Program-made: the position numbers and the translations under genes | Source of the DNA: Bacillota bacterium | Lineage (GTDB): Bacteria; Bacillota; Limnochordia; Darwinibacteriales; DTU012 | NCBI GenBank assembly: GCA_012520795.1 | Contig: JAAYNP010000082.1 | Span: forward strand, 1 to 57,756 | Length of the DNA: 57,756 nucleotides | Direction of reading: 5' to 3' | Notes under the pieces: model-generated | What the model saw: the letters and a program-made list of their open reading frames with translations, nothing else | The model's database searches: none | Told to the model about the DNA's origin: nothing | Part shown: piece by piece, positions 23,456-46,471 of the stretch | Layout of the letters: every line of letters starts with the position of its first letter | How positions within the stretch are numbered: the stretch's first letter is position 1

Positions 23456-23479
23456 GGTGTACCCTCCAATACTAGTGTT

Positions 23480-24769: not shown

Positions 24770-24965
24770 AGCCTCACCTTTCGGTTAATATTCTAAACGA
24801 TAATAGGGCATGAATCAATATCAGAAACGGATAAAGCGGCAGCCGGCAAGCGGATCCATCTGCGGCCCGGAACCGGATCAGGCAAATACTGCAGGGGAAA
24901 TGCAATCAGAGTAGAATAGAAACAGTAGGCTTAAGTAGATTATCTTGGTAAAAGAGGGAGATACG

Positions 24966-26246: not shown

Positions 26247-26338
26247 AGCAAAGCCATAGGGATGGTAAAAAGCCGGCTTGGGGCTTGATCAGCCGCCAGG
26301 CTGGCCTATGTTTTCTGCTGATATTACACGCCGTGCTG

Positions 26339-27467: not shown

Positions 27468-27573
27468 TTTATAAAATATGATCGGCTCTTCTTGTGGCAG
27501 TGGAATTTGTTTTCCTGCAAGGAGAGCTTTTCGTCATGATCGGTTGCAAAAACACTGGAGAGCAGGTGGATCA

Positions 27574-29799: not shown

Positions 29800-29844
29800 T
29801 TTAGTTAACATGTTGACGAAAATTTAGCTAAACAGTAAACTAAA
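29800..29844. promoter_or_regulatory. Repeated TTTAG-TAA boxes overlapping the promoter of the sugar cluster
   Basis: TTTAGTTAAC (29800-29809), TTTAGCTAAAC (29823-29833, a palindrome inside the promoter spacer) and the inverted GTAAACTAAA (29835-29844) form an operator-like array. A binder here would block or guide RNA polymerase. No regulator gene is in the cluster itself. Confidence 0.5.
29813..29841 (+). promoter_or_regulatory. Sigma-A promoter of the 29.9-46.5 kb cluster
   Basis: TTGACG (29813-29818), exactly 17 bases, then TAAACT (29836-29841), 58 bases before the first start codon. Confidence 0.65.
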
Positions 29845-29898
29845 GGTAAGACAGAGGATGATAAACTTCAAGATTAAACTTAGTTAGGGGGTATAGCA

Positions 29899-31299
29899 TT
29901 GAAAATAGGCGTGATACTCGGCAACAGAAGTTTTTTCGCAGATGAATTGTGTCTGGATGGAAGGCAGCGGATCCTTGGGGCTTTGGAAGCTGCCGGGGTG
30001 ACTCCGGTGATCCTGCCGGAAGACGCAGGGGCATATGGCAGTGTGCAAAACAGGGAACAGGCGCTTGAATGCGTAGCCTTGTTCAAGGAACACAGCGATC
30101 TTGCAGGCGTGGTTATTTCATTACCGAACTTCGGTGATGAAAAGTCCATCGCTATCGTGCTGCGGGAGGCCAAAATCGATGTGCCGGTTTTGGTCCATGC
30201 CTTCAACGATCACCTTGATCGCCTTGACTATGAGAACCGCCGCGACAGCTTTTGCGGTAAGGTTTCTGTCTGCAACAACTTAAGGCAATATGGGATCAAG
30301 TTCACCCTGACCACTCTGCACACAGTAGATCCGGAACACCCCACGTTTCAGGCGGATCTCCAGCGGTTCCTGGCTGTTTGCCGGGTAGTGAGAGCCCTCA
30401 AACGGGCAAGAATCGGGCTCGTGGGTGTGCGGCCGGCAGATTTCAATACGGTCCGCTATAGTGAGAAACTATTGGAATACAACAATATTTCTGTGGAGCC
30501 AATCGGCCTGATCGACATCGTCGGCAGGATTGACGAGCTTAGCGATGATCAAGCGGAACAGGCTCTTGCCGAGATTAAAGCCTATATGCCCACCGAAGGT
30601 GTGCCGGGCGGTGCATTGGTGAAAATGGCCAAATTGCTGATGGTACTGCGGGAGTGGGTTGGCAGCAGCGATCTTCACGCAGTAGCTGTTCAGTGCTGGG
30701 ATTCGCTCCAGCGTTACCTGGGCGTTAATCCGTGTGCAGTTATGAGCATACTGGCCAATGCCGGGATTCCCGCAGCCTGTGAAAGTGATGTTGTCGGCGC
30801 CGTAAGCATGCTGGCCCTGCAGGCAGCGAGCGGCATGCCCAGCGCACTTGTGGACTGGAACAACAACTATGCCGATGATCCCGAACGGTTTGTCTTGTTC
30901 CACTGCGGTAACTTTGCCAAGGCAATCTACCAGAACGAATCATGCAGCCCGGCCATTAATTATCCGCCAATTTTAGCCTCGACCTTGGGGCAGGAGCATA
31001 CCTACGGATCCATTGATGGCAAGGTAAAGCCCGGCAAGGCCACCTTTGCCCGGATTACGACTGACGATCTGACCGGGACAATCAGGGCTTATTGTGCCGA
31101 AGGTGTCATTACCGATGATCCCCTTGCCACTTTTGGTTCCTGGGGAGTGGTGAATGTACCGGGGCTGCAGGATTTAATGCGCTTTATCTGTGAAAATGGG
31201 TTTGAACACCATGTGGCCATTACCTTGGACAGTGCTGCCGATGCTTTGGCAGAGGCATTAGGCAAGTATCTGGGATGGGATGTGTACCGTCACCGCTGA
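29899..31299 (+). CDS. L-fucose/L-arabinose isomerase-family protein
   Basis: The 466-residue protein starts at TTG 29899 after TTAGGGGG. It has the FucI/AraA superfamily look: an N-terminal Rossmann-like domain (KIGVILGNRSFFADEL), HAFNDHLDRLDYENRRDSFCG around 104-124, WDSLQRYLGVNPCAVMSILA near 275, an acidic metal-binding residue in PAACESDVVGA near 300, and HCGNF near 335. Such enzymes interconvert an aldose and a ketose in the cytoplasm. Fucose isomerases are about 590 residues and arabinose isomerases about 500, so this is a shorter branch of unknown sugar. As first gene of the cluster it probably does the first intracellular step. Confidence 0.75.
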   Translation: MKIGVILGNRSFFADELCLDGRQRILGALEAAGVTPVILPEDAGAYGSVQNREQALECVALFKEHSDLAGVVISLPNFGDEKSIAIVLREAKIDVPVLVHAFNDHLDRLDYENRRDSFCGKVSVCNNLRQYGIKFTLTTLHTVDPEHPTFQADLQRFLAVCRVVRALKRARIGLVGVRPADFNTVRYSEKLLEYNNISVEPIGLIDIVGRIDELSDDQAEQALAEIKAYMPTEGVPGGALVKMAKLLMVLREWVGSSDLHAVAVQCWDSLQRYLGVNPCAVMSILANAGIPAACESDVVGAVSMLALQAASGMPSALVDWNNNYADDPERFVLFHCGNFAKAIYQNESCSPAINYPPILASTLGQEHTYGSIDGKVKPGKATFARITTDDLTGTIRAYCAEGVITDDPLATFGSWGVVNVPGLQDLMRFICENGFEHHVAITLDSAADALAEALGKYLGWDVYRHR

Positions 31300-31311
31300 G
31301 GAGGGATTTGC

Positions 31312-31974
31312 TTGAAAAAGCTTGTGGCGATCTATACTGGGCAGGGATTGGCGGAACCGCTGCAAAAGCTGATTCAATCAGAGCTTCCCGGGCTTTGGCT
31401 GGTCAACATAATCGATGACGGGATCATCCATGATGTGATCAAAGCCGGCGGCGTGACCAATCCGGTTAGAAGGCGGTTGATCAAGTACTATCAGATAGCG
31501 GTGGAAATCGGTGCCGATCTGATTCTCAACACCTGTTCGTCCGTGGGCGAAGTGGTTGATCTGGGAAGGGCGCTGATTGATGTCCCCATTGTGAAAATCG
31601 ATGAGCCAATGGCCAAACATGCGGCCGCCAACTACCAGAGAATAGGGGTCGTTGCCACTTTGCCGACGACGCTTGAGCCCACTGCCAGGCTTGTGCAAGC
31701 TCAGGCACAGACTTTGGGAAAAGACATCACGATTATTGACGGGTTGGCTGAAGGCGCTTACCATGCCCTGATCAACGGCCGGGCGGATGAACATGATCAG
31801 CTGATTATGGAAGTCGGCCGCCGGTTGGCGGAACAGGTAGACTGTATTGTCCTGGCCCAGGCTTCGATGATGCGGATGCAGCAGAAGCTGGCGGAAACGG
31901 CGAACGTGACTGTCCTGTCCAGCCCGCCCCTATGTGTCGCCCACCTCAAAACCATGCTGGAGCGTGGAATATGA
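31312..31974 (+). CDS. Asp/Glu racemase-superfamily protein with one catalytic Cys
   Basis: This 220-residue two-domain protein begins at TTG 31312 after GGAGGG. LILNTCSSVGE places a Cys (C75) at the first catalytic position of Asp/Glu/hydantoin racemases. At the second position LAQASMM (181-187) has no Cys, so a two-base racemase mechanism is unlikely; single-Cys relatives include decarboxylases and isomerases. It lies 12 bases after the isomerase, and its stop overlaps the next start (ATGA at 31971-31974), so it is part of the same translation unit. The substrate is probably an intermediate of the cluster's sugar. Confidence 0.7.
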   Translation: MKKLVAIYTGQGLAEPLQKLIQSELPGLWLVNIIDDGIIHDVIKAGGVTNPVRRRLIKYYQIAVEIGADLILNTCSSVGEVVDLGRALIDVPIVKIDEPMAKHAAANYQRIGVVATLPTTLEPTARLVQAQAQTLGKDITIIDGLAEGAYHALINGRADEHDQLIMEVGRRLAEQVDCIVLAQASMMRMQQKLAETANVTVLSSPPLCVAHLKTMLERGI

Positions 31975-32801
31975 TGTCAGGCCACAACGTCAGTTACCTG
32001 GAACACATGGCGCGGCAGATCCGCCGTGACATCATCACCATGATTTATGAGGCGGGAGACGGGCACCCGGGACCCAGCCTGTCCTGTGCCGATCTTGTCA
32101 CTGCACTCTATTTTGCAGTTATGGAAGTGGATCCAGCCAATCCCCATTGGCCCCGGCGCGACCGCTTGATTCTATCCAAGGGCCACGCCTGTCCTGCTGT
32201 TTATGCCGCATTAGCCAGGAAAGGCTATTTTGATCCTGCCGAACTGCCGCGGCTCCGCACTCTTGGCGGGATGCTCCAAGGCCATCCCGACATGCTTAAG
32301 ACTCCCGGCATTGATTTTACCTCTGGTTCTTTAGGAAACGGGATCAGTATCGGGCTGGGAATTGCCCTTGCCGCCAGGATTAACGGCCTGGAATACTACA
32401 CATATGTGATTACCGGCGATGGAGAGCTGCAGGAAGGAATCATTTGGGAAGCGGCTATGGCCGCCAAGCATTACCAGGTGGGCAATCTGATCGTCTTTGT
32501 CGATTACAACGGAATTCAAAGCGGAGGCAGGATAGCAGAAATTAGCGGCCTGGAGCCAGTTATCCCCAAGTTTGAAGCCTTTGGGTGGCACTGCCAGGAG
32601 ATTGACGGCCACAACTTCACCGAGATTTTGTCGGCAGTGGCCAACGCCAAAGCCACGCCCGCCATTCCTTCCGTAATTGTCGCCCATACTGTCAAGGGCA
32701 AAGGCATCTCATTTATTGAAAACAATAATGCCTGGCACAAAAGGGTTCCGGACAAGGCAGAGTGGGAGCAGGCATTGCAGGAGCTGGGGGCTGAACCATG
32801 A
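31971..32801 (+). CDS. Transketolase N-terminal subunit, pair 1
   Basis: The 276-residue protein is the thiamine-diphosphate-binding half of a split transketolase: LILSKGHACPAVYAAL, GSLGNGISIGLGIAL, and the ThDP motif from GDGELQEGIIWEAAM to FVDYNG, plus TVKGKGISFIEN at the end. It starts inside the previous stop (ATGA) and its own stop overlaps the next start in the same way, so three proteins are translationally coupled. With the next gene it moves a C2 ketol unit between a ketose and an aldose. Split transketolases are used for pentoses but also for odd sugars such as apulose-4-phosphate or sulfosugars. Confidence 0.9.
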   Translation: MMSGHNVSYLEHMARQIRRDIITMIYEAGDGHPGPSLSCADLVTALYFAVMEVDPANPHWPRRDRLILSKGHACPAVYAALARKGYFDPAELPRLRTLGGMLQGHPDMLKTPGIDFTSGSLGNGISIGLGIALAARINGLEYYTYVITGDGELQEGIIWEAAMAAKHYQVGNLIVFVDYNGIQSGGRIAEISGLEPVIPKFEAFGWHCQEIDGHNFTEILSAVANAKATPAIPSVIVAHTVKGKGISFIENNNAWHKRVPDKAEWEQALQELGAEP

Positions 32802-33757
32802 TCAAGTATGCATCTACGAGAGCGGCTTTTATCGACAGCCTGACAGAGTTGGCGGGCAGTAATCCCAAAACTGTCCTTGTCTGCGCCGATTCAGCCAAAG
32901 TGATCTGGGCCGATGGGTTCAAGGAGAGATTCCCGGAGCGGTTCATTGATGTGGGCATTGCGGAGCAAAACGCCGTGGCCTGCGCAGCCGGATTGGCATC
33001 ATGCGGCTTGATACCGTTTGTCGCCACCTATGCCGGGTTTATCACCATGAGGGCTTGTGAGCAAGTACGGACTTTTGTGGCGTATCCCAACTTAAACGTA
33101 AAAATGGTGGGGGCAAACGGCGGGATTGGAGCCGGTGAACGGGAAGGTGTCACACACCAGTTCTTCGAAGACCTGGGAATTTTGCGGGCTATTCCCGGTA
33201 TTACCATTGTGGTGCCGGCGGATGCCTCCCAGGTGGGCAAAGCCGTTAAGGCTGTGGCCAATATCCCGGGGCCGGCGTATGTGCGGATCGGCAGTGGGCG
33301 AGATCCAGTTGCCCTGGATGCGGATCTCCCATTTGAGCTGGGTAAAACCAGGGTTCTTAAAGCTTTTGGGGACGATGTGGCCATCTTTACCAACGGGCAT
33401 GCCATCCCCAGAGCCTTGGCGGGAGCAGAGGAACTGAGCAAGGCGGGAATCAAGGCCACTGTGGTTGAGGTCCATACCTTGAAGCCCTTGGAGACTGAAG
33501 CCATAGCAGAGATTCTTGCGAAAACAGGTGCAGCGGTTACGGTGGAAGACCATAGTATTATCGGAGGCTTGGGCAGCGCCATCGCCGAAGTGATTGCTGA
33601 ACAGGTCCCAGTGCCCTTGGCCAGGATCGGGCTGCGGGATCGGTTCCCTGAATCAGGGCCGGCGGAACAGCTGATGGATGCTTATGGGTTGAGTGTTGGC
33701 GATATCACTGCTGCGTGCAGGCAAGTATTGGCCAGAAAGGAAGGTCGGCATGGGTAA
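32798..33757 (+). CDS. Transketolase C-terminal subunit, pair 1
   Basis: The 319-residue partner of the preceding gene has the pyrimidine-binding domain with the activating Glu in FIDVGIAEQNAVACAAGLA and the C-terminal domain with TVEDHSIIGGLGSAI. It also contains NGGIGAGEREGVTHQFFEDL, the loop that faces the substrate. It starts by ATGA overlap with the N-subunit, which ensures equal amounts. The transaldolase-family gene starts within its last codons. Confidence 0.9.
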   Translation: MIKYASTRAAFIDSLTELAGSNPKTVLVCADSAKVIWADGFKERFPERFIDVGIAEQNAVACAAGLASCGLIPFVATYAGFITMRACEQVRTFVAYPNLNVKMVGANGGIGAGEREGVTHQFFEDLGILRAIPGITIVVPADASQVGKAVKAVANIPGPAYVRIGSGRDPVALDADLPFELGKTRVLKAFGDDVAIFTNGHAIPRALAGAEELSKAGIKATVVEVHTLKPLETEAIAEILAKTGAAVTVEDHSIIGGLGSAIAEVIAEQVPVPLARIGLRDRFPESGPAEQLMDAYGLSVGDITAACRQVLARKEGRHG

Positions 33758-34799
33758 CGGCTACTTTCAGCGGGTGGCACAGCAGAGCCCTACCAGATTA
33801 TGGATCAACAATCCAACCAGGGAGGAAGCGAAGAAAGCTATTGCAGCCGGAGCCATCAGCTGTACCACCAACCCTACTTATGCAGCCAAGATGCTGCAGT
33901 CCGAATCGGAAAGAGACGCAGTGATTGCTGTTATTGATCAGGTTATAAAGGCCAAAAGTGACGACTCAGAGGCGGCTGCCCAGATCCAGAGGCTGGCAAT
34001 CAAGCCGCTGGTGGAGATCTTTCGACCGCTTCATACAGCCAAACAGCGGCAGGGTTTTGTCTCAGTACAGGGCGACCCCTTTGCTGAAGATGATTACACC
34101 AATATTATCGATGCCGCCTTGGCCGACCGGGGATTGGGTGAAAACGTGATTGCCAAAATCCCCGTCACAGCGGCAGGTTTAAAGGCCATCGAATACCTGA
34201 TTGGTGAGGATGTGCCCATTATTGCCACAGAGGTGATGGCCATCTCCCAAGCCATCACTGTTTGTAAGCTGTATGAACGGGCCTGTGAGAAGTTAAATAA
34301 ACGGCCGCCGTTTTATGTCACCCATATCACCGGAATTCTCGATGAATATCTGCACAATTTGGCCCGGCAGGAGCAGATCGGTATAGCCAAAGATATTCTC
34401 TGGCAGGCGGGGACTATTGTGGCCCGCAAGCAGTACAGGATACTGAAACAGCGGGGCTTTAACGCAACCATGCTGGGGGGTGGGGCCAGAGGGCTGCACC
34501 ACTTTACAGAAATGGTTGGCGGTGACATCCATGTCACCATCAATTGGCGGGGAGCTGCGGATGAGCTTCTCAGCCAGGATCCGCCGGTGGTTTACCGCAT
34601 GGATACGCCGGTTCCCGACTATGCCGTCAGGGAACTGCTGCGCATTCCCGCATTCAAGATGGCCTTTGCAGAAGACGGCCTTGCTGTGGAGGAGTATGCC
34701 GATTTTGGGCCGGTGCGCTATTTCAGGGATAGCTTTGAAGCAGGCTGGAGCGCTTTGCTGACAGTCATTGACGAAAGGCGCCGGGCTGGAAGCGGCTGA
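33750..34799 (+). CDS. Transaldolase-family protein
   Basis: The start is ATG 33750 with AAAGGAAGG upstream, overlapping the transketolase stop by eight bases. The 350-residue protein has the transaldolase barrel with LWINNPT, SCTTNPTYAAKM, and the Schiff-base Lys K136 in NVIAKIPVTAAG. Its C-terminal part, with GGGARGLHHFTEM and HVTINWRGAADEL, is longer than in the small TalC/FSA type, near the length of TalA. It would transfer or cleave a C3 dihydroxyacetone unit. Beside two transketolases and no complete pentose pathway, a special sugar phosphate is likely. Confidence 0.8.
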   Translation: MGNGYFQRVAQQSPTRLWINNPTREEAKKAIAAGAISCTTNPTYAAKMLQSESERDAVIAVIDQVIKAKSDDSEAAAQIQRLAIKPLVEIFRPLHTAKQRQGFVSVQGDPFAEDDYTNIIDAALADRGLGENVIAKIPVTAAGLKAIEYLIGEDVPIIATEVMAISQAITVCKLYERACEKLNKRPPFYVTHITGILDEYLHNLARQEQIGIAKDILWQAGTIVARKQYRILKQRGFNATMLGGGARGLHHFTEMVGGDIHVTINWRGAADELLSQDPPVVYRMDTPVPDYAVRELLRIPAFKMAFAEDGLAVEEYADFGPVRYFRDSFEAGWSALLTVIDERRRAGSG

Positions 34800-34824
34800 A
34801 GCTTTGACGAAAGGAGTGGGCTTG

Positions 34825-35172
34825 TTGGCGATGGCAGACAACAAATACCACAAGCGTTTGGAGGAGCAGAAGACAGTGGAGATGCTGCCCGGCATCTTCA
34901 GGACCACCCTTGCTTACAATGATCAGCTGATGCTGTGCCATTTTTACATGAAAAAAGGGGCTGCGATCCCTCTTCACAGCCATGAAGCTGTTCAAAACGG
35001 ATACGTGATCAAAGGCAAGGTGCGCTTCTTTACCAAGGATGGAACTGACATCATTGCCAAACCCGGGTCTGGCTATGTTTTTGGCTCATACGAGGAACAC
35101 GGCTCGGAAGTGCTTGAGGACACAGAATTGATCGAGTGCTTTACTCCGATGCGCCAAGAGTACATCGATTGA
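34825..35172 (+). CDS. Cupin-domain protein
   Basis: The start is uncertain among TTG 34822, TTG 34825 and ATG 34831; TTG 34825 has the best spacing (eight) to AAGGAG at 34811-34816. The product of about 115 residues is a single small cupin barrel with P-L-H-S-H-E-A (metal-binding His pair plus Glu) and, later, E-E-H-G-S-E supplying the last His. Cupins of this type in sugar clusters are mutarotase-like isomerases, epimerases or lyases for sugar acids. No stronger call is possible. Confidence 0.75.
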   Translation: MAMADNKYHKRLEEQKTVEMLPGIFRTTLAYNDQLMLCHFYMKKGAAIPLHSHEAVQNGYVIKGKVRFFTKDGTDIIAKPGSGYVFGSYEEHGSEVLEDTELIECFTPMRQEYID

Positions 35173-35182
35173 GGTGCGGTAG

Positions 35183-36202
35183 GTGGATAACAGCTTAAAC
35201 GATGCGGCGAAAAAGTACTTCACCCCTTATAAACTTGGGCGGCCGGTTTTGACAGGTTCCGGCAGGGCTGGAGATTTTGATGCCCTGGCCGTGGACTGCC
35301 CCTTTGTTTTTTACCATAACAGCCGGTTTTACATGCTCTATGTCGGCTTTGACGGGTTCGGGTACCAGACAGGCTTGGCTGTCAGCGGTGATCTTGTAAA
35401 CTGGGAGCGCAAAGGGCCGATCTTGAGAAGGGAAGAGCATGTGGGCTGGGATCGGGTTGGAGCTGCGGGCACCTGGATTCTGAAAAACACCAACTCTATT
35501 TGGGAGCTGCCCGCTCTGCAGAAAGTGGGCGGCAGATACTGGATGGTGTACCATTCGTATCCAGAAGCAGGATACGAAGCAGGGCCTGCCCAGATTGGCC
35601 TGGCCTGGAGTGAGGATCCGGAACTGATGCAGTGGCACCGCCTGCCGGAACCCGTCTTTTCCTGGAAAGACGGGGCGGATTGGGAAAACGGCGGGCTTTA
35701 CAAAGCGTGTCTGCTTTGGGAAAACGATCGCTATTATCTTTTTTATAACGCCAAAAATGCCAAGCCCAGAGGCTGGGTCGAGCAGATCGGCGTGGCAGTC
35801 TCCACCGATTTGAACAACTGGCAGCGTTATGAGGGAAACCCGATTGTCCGGGTGTCGGAAGGCCGGTGGGACAGCCAGTTTTGCGCCGACCCTTATGTGG
35901 TGAAAGACAAGGGCCGCTGGCTGATGTTCTACTATGGGTTTAACCGGAAGCATGCCCAGGACGGGCTTGCCTTTTCCCGCAATCTTTACGACTGGACAAA
36001 ATTACCGGAGCCGATCCTGGCCAACGGCAAAGAGGGCGAAATTGACCATTCTTTTGCCCATAAACCCTCCATTCTTTATCACAACGGCACCCTGTACCAT
36101 TTCTACTGTGCATGCCGCAAGTACAGGGAAGGCGATCCGGCAAAGAGCCTTTGGGATGAATTCCGAACCATCACCTTTGCCGCTTCTCGGCCCATCAAAT
36201 GA
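35183..36202 (+). CDS. GH43/GH32-like five-bladed beta-propeller glycosidase
   Basis: The 339-residue protein starts at GTG 35183, 11 bases after the cupin stop. Repeated blades such as DCPFVFYHNSRFYMLYVGFD, YWMVYHSYPEAGYEAGPAQI, GLYKACLLWENDRYYLFYNA and FCADPYVVKDKGRWLMFYYG are typical of clan GH-F/GH-J propellers (GH43, GH32, GH117, GH130-like). Asp residues at the start of the blades and the Glu/His of AHKPSILYHNG could be catalytic, but the exact family cannot be fixed by eye. With no signal peptide, it would release a terminal sugar in the cytoplasm. Confidence 0.7.
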   Translation: MDNSLNDAAKKYFTPYKLGRPVLTGSGRAGDFDALAVDCPFVFYHNSRFYMLYVGFDGFGYQTGLAVSGDLVNWERKGPILRREEHVGWDRVGAAGTWILKNTNSIWELPALQKVGGRYWMVYHSYPEAGYEAGPAQIGLAWSEDPELMQWHRLPEPVFSWKDGADWENGGLYKACLLWENDRYYLFYNAKNAKPRGWVEQIGVAVSTDLNNWQRYEGNPIVRVSEGRWDSQFCADPYVVKDKGRWLMFYYGFNRKHAQDGLAFSRNLYDWTKLPEPILANGKEGEIDHSFAHKPSILYHNGTLYHFYCACRKYREGDPAKSLWDEFRTITFAASRPIK

Positions 36203-36252
36203 GAAACCGCGGCCTTGAACGTCTGTAATCACAAATGAAGGAAGTGATCTGC

Positions 36253-37077
36253 TTGGCTAACCTGAAGCTGCTGGCTGAAAAGGCGGTTCAAACACGAATC
36301 GCCATTTTGCAGATGATCTACCAGGGAAAAGGGGGGCATATCGGAGGAGCCCTTTCATGCACTGATATTCTTGTAACACTCTATTATACCGTTATGCGCA
36401 TTGATCCCAAAAACCCCGGCTGGGAAGGCCGGGATCGGTTTGTCTTGAGCAAAGGCCACAGTGTGGAAGGTTTGTATGCTATTCTGGCAGATCTGGGGTT
36501 CATCCCCCGGGCGGAGCTGGACTCTTACCGCGGGTTTGGTTCGCGCCTGATCGGCCACCCCAGCAACAAGGTGCCGGGAATTGAGGTCAATACCGGTGCC
36601 TTGGGACACGGTTTGTCGGTGGGTGTCGGCATGGCACTTGCGGGAAAGATGGATCAAAAAGACCACAAAGTGTATGTCCTGATGGGTGACGGCGAGCTGG
36701 CGGAAGGTTCGGTTTGGGAAGCGGCGATGGCCGGCAGCCATTACAAGCTGGATAATCTAATCGGGATTGTTGACCGCAACCGGCTCCAGATTGGCGGCAG
36801 TACTGAAGATGTAATGGCGCTGGAGGATTTGAAAGCGAAATGGCAGGCCTTTGGCTGGGAAGCCCTGGAGGTCGACGGGCATGATTTCAACAGCCTGGTG
36901 GAACTGGCCAAGCTGCCGATCGTGCCGGGAAAGCCGCATATGATCATCGCCAACACCATCAAGGGCAAAGGGATATCTTTCATGGAAAACGAAGTTGGGT
37001 GGCATCACAGAGTCCCCAACGAGGAAGAGTATGCCCAGGCACTGCAGGAACTGGAGCTGAGGATGGGAGCGTTTTAG
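36253..37077 (+). CDS. Transketolase N-terminal subunit, pair 2
   Basis: The start is placed at TTG 36253, with AAGGAAG (36238-36244) eight bases upstream; ATG 36235 has no ribosome site. The 274-residue protein has GKGGHIGGALSC, FVLSKGHSVEGLYAIL, ALGHGLSVGVGMALAG, and the ThDP motif from GDGELAEGSVWEAAM to VDRNRL. It differs clearly from the pair 1 N-subunit (for example HSVEGLYA against HACPAVYA), so the two pairs are old paralogues with probably different substrates, not a recent copy. Confidence 0.88.
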   Translation: MANLKLLAEKAVQTRIAILQMIYQGKGGHIGGALSCTDILVTLYYTVMRIDPKNPGWEGRDRFVLSKGHSVEGLYAILADLGFIPRAELDSYRGFGSRLIGHPSNKVPGIEVNTGALGHGLSVGVGMALAGKMDQKDHKVYVLMGDGELAEGSVWEAAMAGSHYKLDNLIGIVDRNRLQIGGSTEDVMALEDLKAKWQAFGWEALEVDGHDFNSLVELAKLPIVPGKPHMIIANTIKGKGISFMENEVGWHHRVPNEEEYAQALQELELRMGAF

Positions 37078-37079
37078 AT

Positions 37080-38021
37080 ATGATAAAGAAGAATCAAGTA
37101 CCATGCAGAAAGGCTTTTACCGAGACACTGCTGGAATTGGCCAGAGAAGACCGGGATATCATTGCCTTGACCAGCGATGCCAGGGGTTCTGTAACTTTGG
37201 AACAGTTTGCCCGGGAACTGCCGGAGCAGTTCGTGGAGGTAGGGATTGCCGAGCAGAATCTCGTCGGGATCGCCGCCGGTTTGGCCGCCTGCGGCAAAAA
37301 ACCTTTTGTGTGCGGCCCTGCCTGTTTTCTTTCCGCCCGCAGCCTGGAACAGGTGAAGGTTGATGCGGCCTACAGCGATATGAATGTGAAAATCATTGCT
37401 GTCAGCGGCGGAGTGAGCTACGGCCCGCTCGGCTCGACTCATCACGCTGTTCATGATCTTGCGGTGATGCGGGCAATACCAAACCTGACAGTGATACTTC
37501 CCTGTGATGTGCATCAAACCCGGGCCATGACGAAACTTCTGGCGGAGTATGAGGGTCCCGTTTATGTGCGGATGGGCCGCGGCGCGGTTGCCGATGTCTA
37601 TCGGGAAAACGATGCCCCCTTTGCAATTGGGCGGGCCAATGTCCTGCTCAACGGCGGCGATCTGACAATCATTGCCACCGGCGAGATGGTGAGGCCGGCT
37701 CTGGATGCAGGCCTGATCTTGAAGCAGCAAGGTGTAAAAACCCGGGTGATTGACATGCATACCATTAAACCGCTGGATCAGGAGGCAGTACTGCAGGCTG
37801 CCTGCGATACGGGAAATCTGATCACCGTTGAAGAACACAGTGTCCACGGCGGGCTTGGAGCAGCCGTGGCAGAGTTGGTAACCCAAAACTTCCCAGTGAG
37901 GATGCGGATTATGGGCATTCCTGACGAGCCCGCCATTACAGGCGATCCTGCCCAAATTCTCAAGTATTACCGGATGACGGCAGAGGATATTGCAGAGGCG
38001 GCGCTGGCAATGCTGGACTAG
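37080..38021 (+). CDS. Transketolase C-terminal subunit, pair 2
   Basis: The 313-residue protein starts at ATG 37080, two bases after the N-subunit stop. It has ALTSDARGS, FVEVGIAEQNLVGIAAGLA with the activating Glu, and the substrate-side loop SGGVSYGPLGSTHHAVHDLA, which is unlike the GAGEREGVTHQ loop of pair 1. TVEEHSVHGGLGAAVAEL closes the C-terminal domain. The difference in the loop supports a different aldose or ketose for pair 2. Confidence 0.88.
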   Translation: MIKKNQVPCRKAFTETLLELAREDRDIIALTSDARGSVTLEQFARELPEQFVEVGIAEQNLVGIAAGLAACGKKPFVCGPACFLSARSLEQVKVDAAYSDMNVKIIAVSGGVSYGPLGSTHHAVHDLAVMRAIPNLTVILPCDVHQTRAMTKLLAEYEGPVYVRMGRGAVADVYRENDAPFAIGRANVLLNGGDLTIIATGEMVRPALDAGLILKQQGVKTRVIDMHTIKPLDQEAVLQAACDTGNLITVEEHSVHGGLGAAVAELVTQNFPVRMRIMGIPDEPAITGDPAQILKYYRMTAEDIAEAALAMLD

Positions 38022-38046
38022 TTCTGCATGCTTGAAAGGAGACAAG

Positions 38047-39948: not shown

Positions 39949-39962
39949 GGGAGGGGTACGGC

Positions 39963-41078
39963 ATGAAGTACCAGATGCAGCATGTCCAAAACTGGGAGGA
40001 AACCAAGGCCCGCTTTACCGCCTGGTGGCAGGGGAAGAACATCGACCGGCCGCTGATGAAAGTCGTTGCCAGGCTGGAGCGGCCCGTCGAGGAGCTGGAA
40101 CCATCCTGGAAGGCGAAGACCTTCGTGGACAAACACCTGGAAGTGGAGCGGAAGGTAGTCAATATGCGCAACTACTGTCGCACCCACAGGTTTTATGCCG
40201 AGGCTTTCCCTTCCCTGGACATCAATATTGGAGCCGGTTCATTCGCAGTTTACCTGGGATTGGAGCCCAAGTTTGACCAAAACACGGTCTGGTTCCCGGA
40301 ATGCATTGATGACTGGGATACATGGGGAGACTTCCGTTTTGATCCGGACAATCACTGGTGGCAGCGGCATTACCAGGCGGTTGAAAAAGCGGTGGAGCTT
40401 GCTCAAGGCGGCTATTTGGTCAACATTCCCGATATCATCGAGAACTTGGATATTCTAGCTGCAATGCGCGGCGCCCAGAACCTGTGCTTCGATTTGATCG
40501 ACCAGCCAGAGGTGGTCAAAGCCCGCCTTGATCAGCTGGATGAGGTGTATTTCGAATACTATGACCGGTTTTACGAACTGGTGATGACAGAGGACGGGGG
40601 CAGCAGCTATACCACATTCAGCATTTGGGGCCCGGGCCGGACAGCCAAGATCCAGTGTGATTTTTCCGCCATGATTTCCCCCGCCCACTTTCGGGAGTTT
40701 GTCCTGCCTTCCTTGAGAAAACAGTGCCGCAACCTTGATTTTTCCCTATACCACCTGGACGGGCCCGATGCGGTCAAACACGTGCCGGCGCTGATGGAGA
40801 TCGAGGAGCTGAACGCTCTGCAGTGGACGCCCGGAGCAGGGCAGCCCGACGGCGGCAGCTCCCAGTGGTTCCCCGTTTACGACCAGGTGATCGCCGCCGG
40901 CAAGTCTTTGTGGATCATGTTTTCCGGCAAAGAAGGCAGGTATGATGACTGGGTGGAAGCCGCCGACCGGATCGTTAAACGCTACGGCCCGGAAAAGCTC
41001 TACTTCCTTTTCCCGGAGATGTCGGAAAAGGAAGCGGAGGCGTTGATGGCCAAAGCCGAGCGTGATTGGGTGAGATAG
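39963..41078 (+). CDS. UroD-superfamily protein without the usual zinc Cys
   Basis: The start is ATG 39963 after GGGAGGGG. The 371-residue TIM-barrel protein belongs to the UroD/methyltransferase superfamily: VARLERPVEELEPSW, INIGAGSFAVYLG, GPGRTAKIQCDFSAMISPAHF and SLYHLDGPDAVKHVPALMEI. The position that holds His-x-Cys in MtaA/MtbA and in the gene at 26339 is H264-L-D266, and the later Cys is also absent, so it is not a typical thiol methyltransferase. Genes of this sort are often found in sugar-degradation clusters, where they may act on the sugar directly; its reaction is unknown. Confidence 0.65.
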   Translation: MKYQMQHVQNWEETKARFTAWWQGKNIDRPLMKVVARLERPVEELEPSWKAKTFVDKHLEVERKVVNMRNYCRTHRFYAEAFPSLDINIGAGSFAVYLGLEPKFDQNTVWFPECIDDWDTWGDFRFDPDNHWWQRHYQAVEKAVELAQGGYLVNIPDIIENLDILAAMRGAQNLCFDLIDQPEVVKARLDQLDEVYFEYYDRFYELVMTEDGGSSYTTFSIWGPGRTAKIQCDFSAMISPAHFREFVLPSLRKQCRNLDFSLYHLDGPDAVKHVPALMEIEELNALQWTPGAGQPDGGSSQWFPVYDQVIAAGKSLWIMFSGKEGRYDDWVEAADRIVKRYGPEKLYFLFPEMSEKEAEALMAKAERDWVR

Positions 41079-41095
41079 GCAGAGGTGGTGTGAGA

Positions 41096-42436
41096 TTGTA
41101 TAATGGTTTGATCGGCGTGATCGCCGATGATCTGACCGGCGCCATGGATGCGGGGATGCAGCTTTTGGCCAAAAATGTGCAGATCCGCACTGCTTTGACC
41201 GTCGACGATCTGGATGCAGTCGTCGCCGGGGCCGACGTGGTGGTGGCCAATACCCAAAGCCGCAACATCGATCCCCGGATCGCTCACGGGCAGGTCAAAG
41301 CGGCGCTGGGGAAGCTTCTCGCCGGCGGGTGCCGGGCTTGGTACAAGAAAATTGATTCGACCTTAAGGGGCAATATCGGAGCTGAGCTGAGGGCTGCCCT
41401 GGAGAGCGGGATCTTTGCTCTGGTGATCGTGGCGCCGGCTTTGCCTTTCAATAAAAGGACGACGGTCAACGGGGTCCACTATGTCGACGGTGTGAGGCTC
41501 GCCGAAATAGAGCTGGCCAAGGATCCCTTCGCACCCATAGCTTGTTCGGAGGTGGGGGAGATCATCAGGAACCAGTTTGAGGTGCCGGTAGGGCATTTGG
41601 ATCTGTCGGCAGTGCGGCAGGGAGGCGCTGTGCTGAGGAAAAAGGCCGAAGAATACTTGGCCGCCGGAATCAGGGTGCTTGCCGCAGACGCCGAAGAAGA
41701 ACAGGATCTGCAGAATATCGCCGCCGCGGCGGGTCTGCTGTCCGGAAAAACCCTTCTGTGCGGCTCGGCGGGATTGTTCCAGCATTTTGACAGGGCTTAT
41801 CCCATCCCAGGCAGAAGCGGGGAGCCAAGGGCTGACATCGCCCTTGAGGAACTGCCGGTATTGGTGCTGTCGGGAAGCCCCGCCCAGATGTCCAAAAGGC
41901 AGATACGTTACGCCGAAGTCAGGCGCGACGGCACGGTTGTGATCCGCTGTGATGTCACAGCCGCGCCGGAAGCGGAACTCACAGGCAGTATGCAAAGGGT
42001 GGCCGAGATTGTTGTGAACCACCTGCGGGCGGGTAAAAACGTAGTCCTGGATGCGGCCGGGGAGAGTAAAGAGTCCATTCTCCTGCAGTCCTGGGGCGAC
42101 CGCGGACGGCTCGATCACTACAGCGCGCTGGTGCAGAAACTGGTGAGGGACACGGCGTCCGCAGCGGCGCAGGCAGGAATCTCCGCTCTTGTCCTCTTCG
42201 GCGGCGACACCGCCGTGTCGGCATTGAAGGGTCTGGGGGGACAGGGCATAGAAATCATTGGAGAGGTGGAGCCCTATATTCCCCTGGGCAGGCTGATTGG
42301 AGGGGCTTACTCCGGTTTGCCCGTGGTCACCAAAGCCGGCGGGTTCGGCGGTGAAAAGTCCCTGATCCGAATCCTGGCGGAGCTGAGTTCATTGAAGGCC
42401 GGAGCACAGCAAAGGAGACAGCGGCATGATGAGTGA
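41096..42436 (+). CDS. Four-carbon acid-sugar kinase family protein (DUF1537, OtnK/DtnK-like)
   Basis: The start is taken as TTG 41096 with GGTGG nearby; GTG 41090 is possible. The 446-residue protein has IGVIADDLTGAMDAG at the N-terminus, KKIDSTLRGNIGAEL near 85-100, and the nucleotide-binding C-terminal half with VLSGSPAQMSKRQI, LVLFGGDTAVSALKG and TKAGGFGGEKSL. DUF1537 enzymes phosphorylate D-threonate, L-threonate, D-erythronate or 3-oxo-isoapionate. The next gene is a PdxA2-type dehydrogenase, and that pair is the known D-threonate/erythronate arrangement, giving CO2 and dihydroxyacetone phosphate. The start of pdxA2 overlaps its stop by 11 bases. Confidence 0.85.
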   Translation: MYNGLIGVIADDLTGAMDAGMQLLAKNVQIRTALTVDDLDAVVAGADVVVANTQSRNIDPRIAHGQVKAALGKLLAGGCRAWYKKIDSTLRGNIGAELRAALESGIFALVIVAPALPFNKRTTVNGVHYVDGVRLAEIELAKDPFAPIACSEVGEIIRNQFEVPVGHLDLSAVRQGGAVLRKKAEEYLAAGIRVLAADAEEEQDLQNIAAAAGLLSGKTLLCGSAGLFQHFDRAYPIPGRSGEPRADIALEELPVLVLSGSPAQMSKRQIRYAEVRRDGTVVIRCDVTAAPEAELTGSMQRVAEIVVNHLRAGKNVVLDAAGESKESILLQSWGDRGRLDHYSALVQKLVRDTASAAAQAGISALVLFGGDTAVSALKGLGGQGIEIIGEVEPYIPLGRLIGGAYSGLPVVTKAGGFGGEKSLIRILAELSSLKAGAQQRRQRHDE

Positions 42437-43490
42437 TCAATCGATGATGGCAAAACTGACGGAACAGGCGGCAGCCAAAGGCAGGCCGATCGTGGCCATA
42501 TCCACCGGCGATCCTTCCGGGATCGGGCCGGAGATTTCCGTGTCGGCGCTTCAGCATGAAGAGGTTTACCGGATCTGCCGCCCGTTTTTAATCGGCGATC
42601 TGGCTGTATTTGCGGCCGTGGGCTTGAAGGGGTGGAACCTCAACCCGTCCGAGCGGGTTGCCGACATGCAGTTCCGTTTTGGCACCATTGATCTCTTGAA
42701 CATGAACCTGCTTGAGTGTGCCCCGCCTCTGGGTGTGGTCAATGCCAGATCCGGCCAGGCATCGTTCCAGTATGTGAAAAAAGCCATTGAGCTGGCCATG
42801 GCCAAAGAAGTGGACGCCACGGTTACGGGCCCGATCAGCAAAGAAGCGATCAACCTGGCCGGGCACCGGTTTTCCGGGCACACGGAGATCTACGCCCGTT
42901 ACACCGGCGCCAAAGACTATGCCATGGTTCTGGCCCACGAGCATTTTCGGGTGATCCATGTTTCCACCCATGTGTCGCTGCGCCGGGCCTGCGATATGGT
43001 GAAAAAGGACCGGGTGTTGAAGGTGATTCAGATCGCTGACCAGGCCTGCCGCCGGCTGGGCATTGCCAAGCCCAGGATCGCGGTGGCAGGTTTGAATCCC
43101 CATGCAGGGGAAAACGGCCTTTTCGGCACGGAGGAAATCACGGAGATCATCCCGGCGGTGGCCGCGGCCCGGGAACAGGGCTTGGACGTGGACGGTCCCA
43201 TTCCGCCGGACACCGTGTTTCCGAAACTGAACGGCGGGCTGTACGACATCTGTGTCTGCATGTACCATGACCAGGGGCACATCCCCACGAAACTTTTGGG
43301 GTTCGCCTGGGATCCGGCCCAAGAAAAGTGGCAGGCGGTGAGCGGCGTCAACATCACCATGGGCCTGCCGGTTGTCCGGGTTTCGGTGGATCACGGCACC
43401 GCCTATGACATCGCCGGCAAGGGTGTGGCGTCGGAGCGTTCGATGGTCAGCGCCATTGCCTACGCGGTGCAGCTTGCTCTGAACCGTTGA
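42426..43490 (+). CDS. pdxA2: PdxA2-type 4-phosphate (threonate/erythronate) dehydrogenase
   Basis: The 354-residue protein is of the PdxA family: ISTGDPSGIGPEI, FSGHTEIYARYTG and HVSLRRACD (metal-binding His), VAGLNPHAGENGLFG, CMYHDQGHIPTKLL and the C-terminal SVDHGTAYDIAGKG. True PdxA makes pyridoxal precursor; PdxA2 members next to a DUF1537 kinase oxidise and decarboxylate 4-phospho-threonate or -erythronate to dihydroxyacetone phosphate. The kinase neighbour and overlap make the second role likely here. A C4 acid must therefore arise in this cell from a sugar; which one is open. Confidence 0.85.
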   Translation: MMSDQSMMAKLTEQAAAKGRPIVAISTGDPSGIGPEISVSALQHEEVYRICRPFLIGDLAVFAAVGLKGWNLNPSERVADMQFRFGTIDLLNMNLLECAPPLGVVNARSGQASFQYVKKAIELAMAKEVDATVTGPISKEAINLAGHRFSGHTEIYARYTGAKDYAMVLAHEHFRVIHVSTHVSLRRACDMVKKDRVLKVIQIADQACRRLGIAKPRIAVAGLNPHAGENGLFGTEEITEIIPAVAAAREQGLDVDGPIPPDTVFPKLNGGLYDICVCMYHDQGHIPTKLLGFAWDPAQEKWQAVSGVNITMGLPVVRVSVDHGTAYDIAGKGVASERSMVSAIAYAVQLALNR

Positions 43491-43520
43491 GCAGTCGATA
43501 AACTACTGGGAGATGATGGC

Positions 43521-44405
43521 ATGAAACTGTGCCGGGGGATTACAGCGGCGATTGTGACGCCGTTTACCAAAAGTGAAGCCCTCGATTGCCGGGAACTGCG
43601 CCGGCATGTCCGCCGCACGCTGGAGGCTGGGGTGCACGGGATTTTCTGCCTGGGGACCAACGGCGAGTTCTATGCCCTCAGCGAAAGGGAGAAATACCGG
43701 GTGGTGGAGACGGTGGTCGACGAAGCCGACGGACGGGTCCCGGTTTACGCCGGGTCCGGGGAGATTGCGACCCGGACGGTGATCCGGCTGACCAAACGGT
43801 TTAGAAAACTGGGGGCCGATGCCGTTTCCATTGTCACGCCTTATTTCATTCACCCCACCCAGCACGAGCTGTACCACCACTATGCCAGAATTGCGGTGGA
43901 AACAGAGTTTCCCATCATTCTCTACAACATCCCCATGCGGACCAATGTGAAACTGGAGCCGGAAACAGTGACGGCATTGGCCGCCGGGTTTGAGAATATC
44001 ATCGGTATTAAGGACTCCAGCGGCGATCTCCGGCTTACCCGGGCTTATATTGAACAAACACCGGATCGGTTTGCTGTCATGGGAGGCAACGACGGCTTGA
44101 TCCTCGACACCCTGCTTTTGGGCGGGACGGGAGCGATCGCTGCCACAGCCAATGTGATTCCGGAAATCCTGGTGAATATCTATCAGGCTTTCCTGGAAGG
44201 GGACCTGGAAAAAGCCCGGATGTGGCAGGAGCGGGTGGCGCCTTTGCGGCAGGATTTCAAGCTTGGGACTGCCCCCGGGGTGATCAAGGTGCAGGCGAAC
44301 CAACGCGGGTACCCGGTCGGCCCCAGCCGGATGCCGATTTTGTTCGATGATCCGGAGGCAGATGCCGTTATCGCTGAAAACTTGACGAAGTTCTACGGCC
44401 GCTGA
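43521..44405 (+). CDS. DHDPS/NAL-family aldolase or dehydratase
   Basis: The 294-residue (beta/alpha)8 protein of the dihydrodipicolinate synthase family has CLGTNGEFYALS (44-54, substrate carboxylate loop), Y135 in ILYNIPMRTN and the Schiff-base Lys K164 in IIGIKDSSGD. GTNGEF rather than GTTGE points to the sugar-acid branch (2-keto-3-deoxy-acid aldolases or dehydratases) more than to lysine biosynthesis. It probably splits or dehydrates a keto-acid of the pathway to pyruvate and an aldehyde. GGGAG lies eight bases before the ATG. Confidence 0.85.
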   Translation: MKLCRGITAAIVTPFTKSEALDCRELRRHVRRTLEAGVHGIFCLGTNGEFYALSEREKYRVVETVVDEADGRVPVYAGSGEIATRTVIRLTKRFRKLGADAVSIVTPYFIHPTQHELYHHYARIAVETEFPIILYNIPMRTNVKLEPETVTALAAGFENIIGIKDSSGDLRLTRAYIEQTPDRFAVMGGNDGLILDTLLLGGTGAIAATANVIPEILVNIYQAFLEGDLEKARMWQERVAPLRQDFKLGTAPGVIKVQANQRGYPVGPSRMPILFDDPEADAVIAENLTKFYGR

Positions 44406-44434
44406 AAGAATAACCGGGAATGGAGTGGGCAAAT

Positions 44435-46471
44435 ATGGACCAAACAGAGCAAGGACTGCGTTTCCGCCAGATCCATCTGGATTTTCACACCAGCGAAGCG
44501 ATCACCGGGGTTGCAGCCAAATTTGACGCCGAGGAATTTGCGTCAGTCCTGGAGCAGGCGAGAGTCAACTCGATCACCTGCTTCGCCCGCTGTCACCACG
44601 GCTGGCTGTATTATGACTCAAAGAAGTTTCCCGAGCGGATTCATCCCCATCTGGCAAACCGCAACCTGCTCAAAGAACAGATCGAGGCCTGCCACCGGCG
44701 CAAGATCAGAGTGCCTGTATATATCACGGTCCAATGGGATCACTACACAGCGGTGCGGCATCCGGAATGGCTGGTGGTTACAGCCGACGGCCGGTTTTCC
44801 GGCACTCCCCCTTTTGAGCCGGGATTTTACCGCAACCTTTGCCTTAATTCACCCTACCGCGAACTCGTGAAAGAGATTACGGCCGAGGTTTTGGAGACTC
44901 TGCCCGTGGACGGGTTGTTCTTTGACATAGTCATTGTGCGGGAATGTGCCTGCAGGCACTGCATCGACGGCATGAAAAGGCAAGGCATGGATCCGGCGAA
45001 CAGGGAAGACCGGCTGCGGTATGCCGTACAGACCCTGAACCAGTTCAAACTGGAAATGGCGGAATTTGTCCGTTCGTTCAACCGGAACTGTTCAATCTTT
45101 TATAACGCTGGCCATATCGGGCCGTTGATCCGCGAGTCCATGCCGGCGTACACCCACCTTGAACTGGAGTCGCTGCCCAGCGGCGGCTGGGGTTATCTGC
45201 ACTTCCCGCTGACCATGAGGTATGCCCGTACGTTGGGTTTGGACTGTCTGTCCCATACCGGCAGATTTCACACGTCGTGGGGAGACTTTCATTCCTTTAA
45301 AAACACGGCGGCGTTGGAGTTCGAGTGTTTTCACATGCTTGCCTTGAACGCGAAGTGCCTGATTGGCGATCAGCTTCACCCTGACGGCGAGATCAGCAGG
45401 CCTGTGTACGAGCTGATCGGTTCGGTGTACCGCCAGGTCGAGCAGAAAGAACCTTGGTGCCGGGGGGCAAAAGCTGTCACCGACATGGCGGTTTTCAATA
45501 CCGAAGAGTTCGACGGCAAACAAGTTTCGCCGCCGACTGCCGGGGCGCTGCGAATGCTGCAGGAAGCCGGCCATCAGTTCGACATTGTCGACAGCCGCAG
45601 CGATTTCTCCCAGTACAAGCTGCTGATTCTGCCGGATCTAGTGGCAGTCGATGATCAGCTGGAGCAGAAGCTGGAAGAGTACCTTGCCGCAGGCGGCAGG
45701 ATGATCGCGTCGGCGTTCTCGGGCCTGGATGCCGGCAAGAGCGAGTTCAGGCTCAAGCCCCTCGGAGTCAGGCTGAGGCAGCCTCTGCGCCGGGACAGCG
45801 GCGGCGATCTGGCGGCGGGCAGGCTCGCTGAAGGCAACGACCATGCTGAGTATATCGTGGCAAAAGGGGCTCTGGGAAAGGGCTTGCCCGAGACCGAACA
45901 TGTGATGTACCTCAAAGGCCTGGAGGTCGCTGCGGCCGACGGCGCCGAAGTGCTCATCGATACTGTCGCCTCGTATTTTGACCGGACCTGGGAGCATTTT
46001 TGTTCCCACCGGCACACTCCTTCCTCCGGCCGGATCGACTATCCGGCGGTGGTTCGGCGCGGCGGGGCGATCTATTTCGCCCATCCGGTTTTCACCCAGT
46101 ATCACATCAATGGACCGCGGTGGTGCAAGATCCTGGTCCTGAACGCGATCGATCTGCTGCTGCCGGATCCTGTCTTAAGGCACAGCGGCCCGTCTTCCCT
46201 GGTTGCGGCCGTCAACGAGCAGGCCCACGCCGGCCGGTGGGTGGTTCATCTGCTGCATTACATTCCGGAACGGCGCTGCCGGGAAATTGACGTTGTCGAA
46301 GATGTAATCTCCCTCTACGATGTCACCGTCTCGATCCGGGCGCCGCAAAAAGTGGCCTCGGTCCGCTGCGTACCGTCGGGGGAGCCGATCCGTTTCCAGG
46401 AACGGGATGGGCGCGCCGAATTTGTGGTGCCGAAGATTGACGGCCACCAAATGGTGGAAGTGAACTTTTGA
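44435..46471 (+). CDS. GHL6-like glycosidase with beta-galactosidase-type trimerisation domain
   Basis: ATG 44435 is chosen because GGAG (44422-44425) is nine bases upstream. The 678-residue protein begins RQIHLDFHTSEAITG, then VNSITCFARCHHGWLYY and IRVPVYITVQWDHYTAVRHP, the TIM-barrel start of the hypothetical glycosyl hydrolase 6 group. GLFFDIVIVRECAC carries acidic residues at a later strand. A trimerisation-like Rossmann domain (about 345-480: AGALRMLQEAGHQFDIVDSR, LLILPDLVAVDD) and a small C-terminal beta domain follow. It lacks a signal peptide. It is the last gene of the cluster; its activity is not established, and fucosidase- or galactosidase-like action is possible. Confidence 0.7.
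   Translation: MDQTEQGLRFRQIHLDFHTSEAITGVAAKFDAEEFASVLEQARVNSITCFARCHHGWLYYDSKKFPERIHPHLANRNLLKEQIEACHRRKIRVPVYITVQWDHYTAVRHPEWLVVTADGRFSGTPPFEPGFYRNLCLNSPYRELVKEITAEVLETLPVDGLFFDIVIVRECACRHCIDGMKRQGMDPANREDRLRYAVQTLNQFKLEMAEFVRSFNRNCSIFYNAGHIGPLIRESMPAYTHLELESLPSGGWGYLHFPLTMRYARTLGLDCLSHTGRFHTSWGDFHSFKNTAALEFECFHMLALNAKCLIGDQLHPDGEISRPVYELIGSVYRQVEQKEPWCRGAKAVTDMAVFNTEEFDGKQVSPPTAGALRMLQEAGHQFDIVDSRSDFSQYKLLILPDLVAVDDQLEQKLEEYLAAGGRMIASAFSGLDAGKSEFRLKPLGVRLRQPLRRDSGGDLAAGRLAEGNDHAEYIVAKGALGKGLPETEHVMYLKGLEVAAADGAEVLIDTVASYFDRTWEHFCSHRHTPSSGRIDYPAVVRRGGAIYFAHPVFTQYHINGPRWCKILVLNAIDLLLPDPVLRHSGPSSLVAAVNEQAHAGRWVVHLLHYIPERRCREIDVVEDVISLYDVTVSIRAPQKVASVRCVPSGEPIRFQERDGRAEFVVPKIDGHQMVEVNF

Follow-up and report, generated by a model that had tools for sequence, protein, structure and literature searches.

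Why would a single bacterial gene cluster encode two different split transketolases? The question is raised by a 57,756-nt stretch of DNA (here called the window; contig C40, JAAYNP010000082.1, positions 1–57,756) that belongs to a 2.37-Mb draft genome, 99% complete, of a Bacillota bacterium (GCA_012520795.1), and whose plus strand carries, between positions 29,899 and 46,471, 15 co-directional open reading frames (ORFs) that mostly overlap or are separated by a few bases. We propose, with a probability of roughly 55%, that this cluster encodes the intracellular end of the use of rhamnogalacturonan II (RG-II), a component of plant cell walls whose glycosidases are known, and that it combines a module for D-apiose (module 1) with a module for L-aceric acid (3-C-carboxy-5-deoxy-L-xylose; module 2), an acidic branched sugar of RG-II. 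Apiose would be consumed by a known route; for the fate of freed aceric acid, no account was found in the literature searched, outside which most subscription journals lay, and the route proposed here is probably undescribed.

An initial annotation of the same DNA had described a cluster of 13–14 genes. The co-directional, overlapping arrangement with two split transketolases (TK1 and TK2), a transaldolase-family protein (TAL), an isomerase (ISO), a DUF1537 kinase and a PdxA-family protein stands; the genes number 15, an Asp/Glu racemase-family gene (RAC) had been omitted, and the cluster is better divided into two separable modules than read as one pathway, with TK2 alone of the two transketolases belonging to the apiose module. 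Aceric acid, the likely second substrate, had not been proposed.

Two split transketolases from distinct clades

31971–32801, plus strand: TKN1, N-terminal (thiamine diphosphate-binding) subunit of split transketolase 1 (Pfam Transketolase_N, tree)
32798–33757, plus strand: TKC1, C-terminal subunit of split transketolase 1 (Pfam, tree, residues)
36235–37077, plus strand: TKN2, N-terminal subunit of split transketolase 2, AptA-like (44% identical to E. coli AptA, tree)
37080–38021, plus strand: TKC2, C-terminal subunit of split transketolase 2, AptB-like (36% identical to E. coli AptB, tree, residues)

In a tree of 43 concatenated transketolase pairs, both TK1 and TK2 fall outside the general, pentose-phosphate clade of split transketolases; a place of both inside it was one of the two outcomes that the initial annotation had named as telling against it, the other being a gene order kept in no relative. 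TK1 clusters with seven TK1-type pairs at 100/99 support, away from the general split pairs, and another 100/99 branch sets TK2, seven operon pairs and E. coli AptAB apart from all others.

The substrate-binding residues, compared in E. coli TktA numbering, follow the same division. It is established that the phosphate of the substrate is held by R358, S385, H461 and R520, and that D469 contacts a hydroxyl. None of the 18 general pairs has lost S385, H461, D469 or R520. By contrast, all 11 pairs of the TK1 type (TK1, its orthologues, three in number, and seven relatives) carry Val/Ala for S385, Asn for H461 and Ser for R520, and have Glu beside one extra residue in place of D469; among the four phosphate ligands, TK1 retains R358 alone. 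TK2 keeps R358, S385 and R520, with Ser in place of H461 and Leu in place of D469, and the same two replacements occur in its relatives (Asn at H461 in E. coli AptB), which mostly keep S385 and R520. These patterns fit a TK2 suited to a phosphorylated branched ketose and a TK1 suited to an unphosphorylated one, in agreement with the earlier proposal that the two enzymes act on different substrates. A pentose-phosphate role for either was ruled out by the tree together with the residues.

A further split transketolase (locus L141, 357–2134, genome G141) branches next to the TK1 group and has S385 and R520 kept; it may represent a state prior to the loss of the phosphate ligands.

The RAC–TK1–TAL–cupin module

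31312–31974, plus strand: RAC, Asp/Glu racemase-family protein (Pfam Asp_Glu_race), candidate keto-acid decarboxylase/tautomerase/epimerase
33750–34799, plus strand: TAL, transaldolase/FSA-family protein (Pfam TAL_FSA, alignment), candidate aldolase/transaldolase for an unphosphorylated substrate
34831–35172, plus strand: CUP, small cupin (Pfam Cupin_2), candidate aldose-ketose isomerase of the TK1 module

A scan of a species-level genome collection with the TAL alignment yielded 26 loci in many phyla, at 38–79% identity. Outside the genus, TK1-type pairs were found at L155, L162, L166, L169 and, in Treponema, L167/L175, and L145 (G298) carries the module with no TAL in view. On a distant Clostridiales contig (L155), RAC, TKN1, TKC1, TAL and CUP lie in the window's order at 35, 56, 46, 50 and 50% identity, respectively. 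RAC adjoins TK1 there, and the same module recurs in L145, L167, L169 and L175. Counterparts of CUP, 50% identical, occupy the same position in L155 and L162, and L166, L169, L167 and L145, with no cupin in view, encode a TIM-barrel (AP_endonuc_2) protein (32–69% alike) and an FCD-type GntR regulator. In the window, the cupin stands where the other clusters have the TIM-barrel protein; for a TIM-barrel isomerase elsewhere in the window genome, a search run without a positive control gave no match. Genes resembling a tripartite ATP-independent periplasmic (TRAP) transporter by sequence and size are present in L145, L167 and L175, and these, together with the FCD-GntR regulators of the same loci, point to an acidic monomer.

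RAC and its relatives keep N(T/I/A)CS, and their second site reads (L/F)AQxSM, without Cys, in 15 of 15 sequences, which leaves one of the two racemase catalytic cysteines. Single-cysteine relatives of racemases include arylmalonate decarboxylase, and a decarboxylase, tautomerase or one-base role appears likelier for RAC than that of a plain racemase. In TAL-family proteins, the catalytic Lys (Schiff base), Asn and Thr of the family are kept (17/17), and the position of the phosphate-binding Arg (TalB R181/FsaA R134) is Ile, again in 17/17. The FSA-type aldolase signature was tried and set aside, given that TAL has Ile at FsaA Y131 and Gln occurs in general transaldolases as well, so that aldolase and transaldolase are not separated by it.

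Other TAL-family genes (L156, L157, L158, L159, L164, L170 and L173, from many phyla) have no TK1 in view and lie beside HpcH/HpaI aldolases, hydroxyacid dehydrogenases, AP_endonuc_2 proteins or DUF1537-PdxA. The family probably serves more than one substrate. L170 groups DUF1537, PdxA, a TIM protein and TAL, and in L156 TAL lies beside proteins of the hydroxypyruvate/2-oxo-tetronate-isomerase-like and acetoacetate-decarboxylase families.

Glycosidases and the proposed link to aceric acid

35183–36202, plus strand: GH137-like beta-propeller, GH43-type (NF049877 and PDB matches)
38047–39948, plus strand: GHx, 652 aa, beta-sandwich plus (alpha/alpha)6 by weak structural resemblance, no family match

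The substrate of the TK1 module is suggested by the glycoside hydrolases (GH) that flank its distant homologues. The GH127 proteins of L169, L166 and L155 (the last encoded directly before RAC-TKN1-TKC1-TAL-CUP) have as their sole NCBIfam match the aceric acid hydrolase model (NF049879), at 793, 725 and 564 bits. Among PDB structures, the L166 protein is nearest to 5mqo (550 bits; other GH127 structures, 309 at most), the structure of BT1003. Among relatives that are otherwise beta-L-arabinofuranosidases, BT1003 is the aceric acid hydrolase (PMC10850190). Every TK1 plus TAL locus with a flanking glycosidase in view (three of three) carries an aceric-acid-hydrolase-like GH127. The acidic nature of aceric acid also fits uptake by a TRAP transporter and regulation by FCD proteins.

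The cluster of the window has its own RG-II-type enzyme. The propeller at 35,183–36,202 matches residues 27–337 of 1400, the N-terminal part, of the beta-D-glucuronidase/beta-L-arabinofuranosidase model NF049877, and matches 5mt2, 5muj and 5mui in the PDB (E 4e-32 to 7e-32). These structures are of the beta-L-arabinofuranosidase domain (GH137) of the RG-II enzyme BT0996. L166 likewise encodes a GH137-like protein, with 342 bits to the BT0996 model. Relative to the RG-II degradome of B. thetaiotaomicron (BT1003, the GH137 of BT0996 and the apiosidase BT1012), the GH127 proteins beside TK1 modules are nearest to BT1003, and GH137-like proteins are found in both the window and L166; the known members BT1003, BT0996 and BT1012 are all glycosidases, in contrast to the downstream steps proposed for the cluster.

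GHx gave no match in Pfam, NCBIfam or PDB sequence searches. Its predicted model has a mean predicted local distance difference test (pLDDT) score of 58.5 and weak Foldseek matches to (alpha/alpha)6 enzymes, too weak a model for a family call by structure. By resemblance, GHx is likely a glycosidase of an unnamed family, and by its position it is a candidate for freeing aceric acid.

The proposed apiose module

29899–31299, plus strand: ISO, fucose/arabinose-isomerase-like protein (Pfam Fucose_iso_C), candidate D-apiose (apulose) isomerase

That apiose catabolism through AptAB is the nearest known logic, as first suggested, is borne out by the grouping of TK2 with E. coli AptAB (100/99); E. 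coli SE15 AptA and AptB are 44% and 36% identical to TKN2 and TKC2. Genes of E. coli SE15 have been named aptA, aptB and aplK, and D-apiose supports growth of E. coli strains with the apt cluster and not of K-12 (PMC13001218). TKC2-like transketolases (49–59%) are encoded in G277, G424, G229, G414, G393 and G420. Operons of the TK2 type contain an FGGY kinase, mostly a fucose-isomerase-type protein (27–51% identical to ISO), and LacI-type or other regulators, with apiosidase-like proteins in those of G277 and G424; FGGY kinase and related isomerase lie beside TK2-type genes in G277, G414, G424, G229, G420 and G071.

The FGGY kinase that the initial annotation had reported missing is indeed absent from the 15 genes of the cluster, but it is present, unlinked, in the genome. 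Contig C148 (L148) holds a LacI gene and most of an FGGY gene, and C153 (L149) the remainder, followed by a GH95 gene; the two contig ends overlap by 127 identical bases, so that together they hold one kinase gene, whose pieces are 72% and 71% identical to residues 1–350 and 309–489, respectively, of the kinase of G062. Identity to AplK is 37–41% for the FGGY kinases of the operons (four compared, 38–41%), of G062 and of C148, and only 22–26% for three other FGGY kinases among the eight FGGY matches of the window genome. The order in G062 is LacI-FGGY-ISO-GH95 and in the window genome LacI-FGGY-GH95, with ISO at the head of the cluster, and this comparison indicates that ISO changed place. Homologues of ISO lie beside an FGGY kinase in G062 (72%) and beside FGGY and TK2-type genes in G277 (44%) and G414 (51%).

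By sequence resemblance, a GH140-apiosidase-like gene is located just upstream of the BNR gene (described below) in G321 and just after the aldolase gene in G062; a related G062 gene matches Pfam Apiosidase, and the one Apiosidase match of the window genome is on C153. With the GH137-like propeller, these genes near the clusters of relatives support the rare-sugar, RG-II setting proposed at the outset.

Conservation of gene order and neighboring genes

39963–41078, plus strand: URO2, UroD-like by resemblance only, its place kept in four genomes
41066–42436, plus strand: DUF1537 kinase, nearest to the D-threonate kinase model, then to 3-oxo-tetronate kinase
42426–43490, plus strand: PdxA-family 4-phosphate dehydrogenase (family models)
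43521–44405, plus strand: dihydrodipicolinate synthase (DHDPS)-family aldolase (DapA model, 238 bits, cut-off 206)
44420–46471, plus strand: GHL6 glycosidase-like protein (Pfam GHL6 and Glyco_hydro_42M)

A search for the same gene order, advised by the initial annotation, was made in a subset sample of genomes and found it in three further members of the genus (G135, G321 and G062), all of which keep RAC-TKN1-TKC1-TAL-CUP-GH43-TKN2-TKC2-GHx-URO2-DUF1537. PdxA and the DHDPS-family aldolase follow in G135 and G062, and the G321 contig ends within the DUF1537 gene. ISO heads the cluster in G135 and G321; in G062 it is found some 45 kb from the cluster, with an FGGY kinase gene on one side and a GH95 gene on the other. 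GHL6 is outside the conserved core, with no homologue at the corresponding place in G135 or G062. Beyond these genomes, a TAL orthologue of at least 70% identity turned up neither in the rest of the class nor in a sample of 398 genomes of the phylum. Because the same order recurs in G135, G321 and G062 and is partly repeated across families, the arrangement is not due to chance.

URO2 has no match in Pfam or NCBIfam. The DUF1537 kinase scores 271 bits with the D-threonate kinase DtnK (cut-off 450) and 160 with 3-oxo-tetronate kinase (cut-off 350). DUF1537 kinase and PdxA adjoin here as in the DtnK/OtnK/PdxA2 pathways for D-threonate and 3-oxo-tetronate, but both are under the curated cut-offs of the named activities.

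The cluster is flanked by pectate lyase genes and by a gene for a protein weakly resembling alpha-L-rhamnosidase. At 27478–29781, 5' of ISO, a domain of the formylglycine-generating enzyme (FGE)-sulfatase type is fused to a BNR/sialidase-type propeller, kept at 81–84% in G135 and G321. Just upstream, on the minus strand (22814–27373), are genes for an MtgC-like corrinoid protein, a regulator of the PocR/AraC type and a UroD protein of the MtaA/CmuA type, a group that is kept alongside the cluster in the same two genomes. Since RG-II contains 2-O-methyl sugars, these genes may encode a corrinoid O-demethylation system that acts on them. A protein 63% identical to the MtaA-type UroD of the window (26339–27373) is encoded at the start of the L166 module (648–1760), near RG-II-type enzymes.

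Alternative explanations

Several observations weigh against the assignment of the two modules to apiose and aceric acid. All three GH127 proteins are under the curated aceric acid hydrolase cut-off of 950 bits, and the TK1 modules of L167/L175 and L145 have no GH127 in view. The window genome yielded no BT1003-type hydrolase that would free aceric acid (best 88 bits, whole proteins about 100). The loss of phosphate ligands would be a difficulty should TK1 also bind a phosphorylated acceptor. On the apiose side, the branch that leads to E. coli AptAB is very long (1.94), and relatives of ISO at about 50% identity mostly adjoin AraB/AraD-like genes, in view of which ISO could be an L-arabinose isomerase.

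The strongest alternative retains the apiose half only and assigns RAC-TK1-TAL-cupin to another acidic sugar (a uronate, an acid derived from 3-deoxy-D-lyxo-heptulosaric acid (Dha) or 3-deoxy-D-manno-octulosonic acid (Kdo), or a sugar acid of another glycan), with TAL yielding a C3 or C4 acid aldehyde. We consider it unlikely, albeit with an appreciable chance. It would account for the TAL relatives of many phyla whose visible neighbors include HpcH/HpaI aldolases, hydroxyacid dehydrogenases, short-chain dehydrogenases/reductases and AP_endonuc_2 proteins but no aceric acid hydrolase, and for the Treponema and G298 modules, which have a TRAP transporter and no glycosidase recognized near. However, those wider TAL loci are without TK1 and RAC, and the TK1 plus TAL loci with a glycosidase in view all carry the GH127.

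It is doubtful that ISO is an L-arabinose isomerase acting on L-arabinose released by the GH137-like enzyme, with TK2 using apulose 4-phosphate made by other enzymes. AraB- and AraD-like genes do exist elsewhere in the window genome, in addition to those adjoining the homologues of ISO. Nevertheless, these arabinose-linked homologues form a starred clade (96/93) that excludes ISO, although the tree gives no support to a grouping of ISO with its apiose-linked homologues, and ISO of G062 adjoins the AplK-like FGGY kinase, as the G277 and G414 homologues adjoin FGGY and TK2-type genes. Apiose is therefore preferred over arabinose as the likely substrate of ISO.

Equally improbable, in our assessment, is that the DHDPS-family aldolase with DUF1537 and PdxA serves Dha catabolism through D-threonate. 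In the window as in G135 and G062, the three genes follow one another without interruption; the best-matching model for the kinase is D-threonate kinase, and by our own derivation the reduced Dha cleavage product has D-threonate stereochemistry. Against this, the cluster has no aldehyde reductase, the aldolase is above the DapA cut-off and may be an ordinary DapA, and the grouping of TAL with DUF1537-PdxA in L170 ties those genes to module 2. The aldolase retains the DapA motif YNxPxRT, as read from its sequence.

A sulfosugar pathway of the sulfo-transketolase/transaldolase (sulfo-TK/TAL) type (sulfoquinovose (SQ) isomerase, SqwGH and SftT), raised in the initial annotation, can be dismissed as highly improbable: the SQ isomerase model SftI is the sole NCBIfam match of ISO and a bifurcated sulfo-TK/sulfo-TAL pathway is known in Faecalicatena (PMC11659671), but ISO reaches only 107 bits against a cut-off of 700, the families found in the cluster include RG-II-type glycosidases and no sulfonate enzyme or sulfoquinovosidase, and SftI-like loci, searched for SqwGH references, had no transketolase among their annotated genes.

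Proposed pathway and implications

From the gene order, clades, residue losses and gene neighbors observed, we infer every substrate, the sequence of reactions in module 2 and what RAC and the cupin do. In the two-module pathway that we favor, ISO would convert D-apiose to D-apulose, the unlinked FGGY kinase would make apulose 4-phosphate, and TK2, as an AptAB-type enzyme, would pass a C2 unit to an aldose phosphate, with dihydroxyacetone phosphate remaining. Module 2 would act on an acidic sugar that carries no phosphate, most likely L-aceric acid. The cupin would isomerize this sugar to its 2-ketose, TK1 and TAL would cut the ketose or a product of it, and RAC would act at the keto-acid stage. 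In the 2-ketose of aceric acid, the carboxyl group is attached to C3, adjacent to the carbonyl carbon, and cleavage between C2 and C3 by a transketolase would give 2-oxo-3-hydroxybutyrate. In one consistent order, TAL would cleave C3-C4 to acetaldehyde and 3-oxotetronate. The latter could then be a substrate of TK1, which would transfer a C2 unit to an aldose phosphate and leave glyoxylate, or, alternatively, the DUF1537 kinase together with decarboxylation could convert it to dihydroxyacetone phosphate and CO2, in which case DUF1537/PdxA would perhaps lie within module 2. The neighbors of TAL in L170 and L156 speak for a TAL product in the range of C4 acids.

Module 1 shares with the apiose pathway of E. 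coli SE15 and Pectobacterium (PWY-8089) a TK2 that groups with AptAB, an AplK-related FGGY kinase, an isomerase and, near the clusters of relatives, apiosidase-like genes; it differs in its unlinked FGGY kinase, its fucose-isomerase-type isomerase and its RG-II setting with a second transketolase. Module 2 shares with the sulfo-TK/TAL pathway of Faecalicatena (PMC11659671) the logic by which an isomerase, a split transketolase and an enzyme of the transaldolase type process an acidic ketose without a phosphate group; it differs in that its isomerase candidate is a cupin or TIM-barrel protein, sulfonate enzymes are lacking, and the substrate is most likely a carboxylated branched sugar.

At somewhat short of even odds, this would be the first catabolic pathway for L-aceric acid, built from a cupin or TIM-barrel isomerase, a phosphate-independent TK1 and a TalB-like enzyme without the phosphate Arg, and located beside an apiose module, so that the two branched RG-II sugars would be removed by a single operon. 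If true, it would assign specific genes, open to testing, to the final stages of RG-II use and would provide a transketolase clade with a recognizable residue signature, and RAC-TK1-TAL-cupin/TIM would become a marker module for RG-II users among uncultured bacteria of several phyla.

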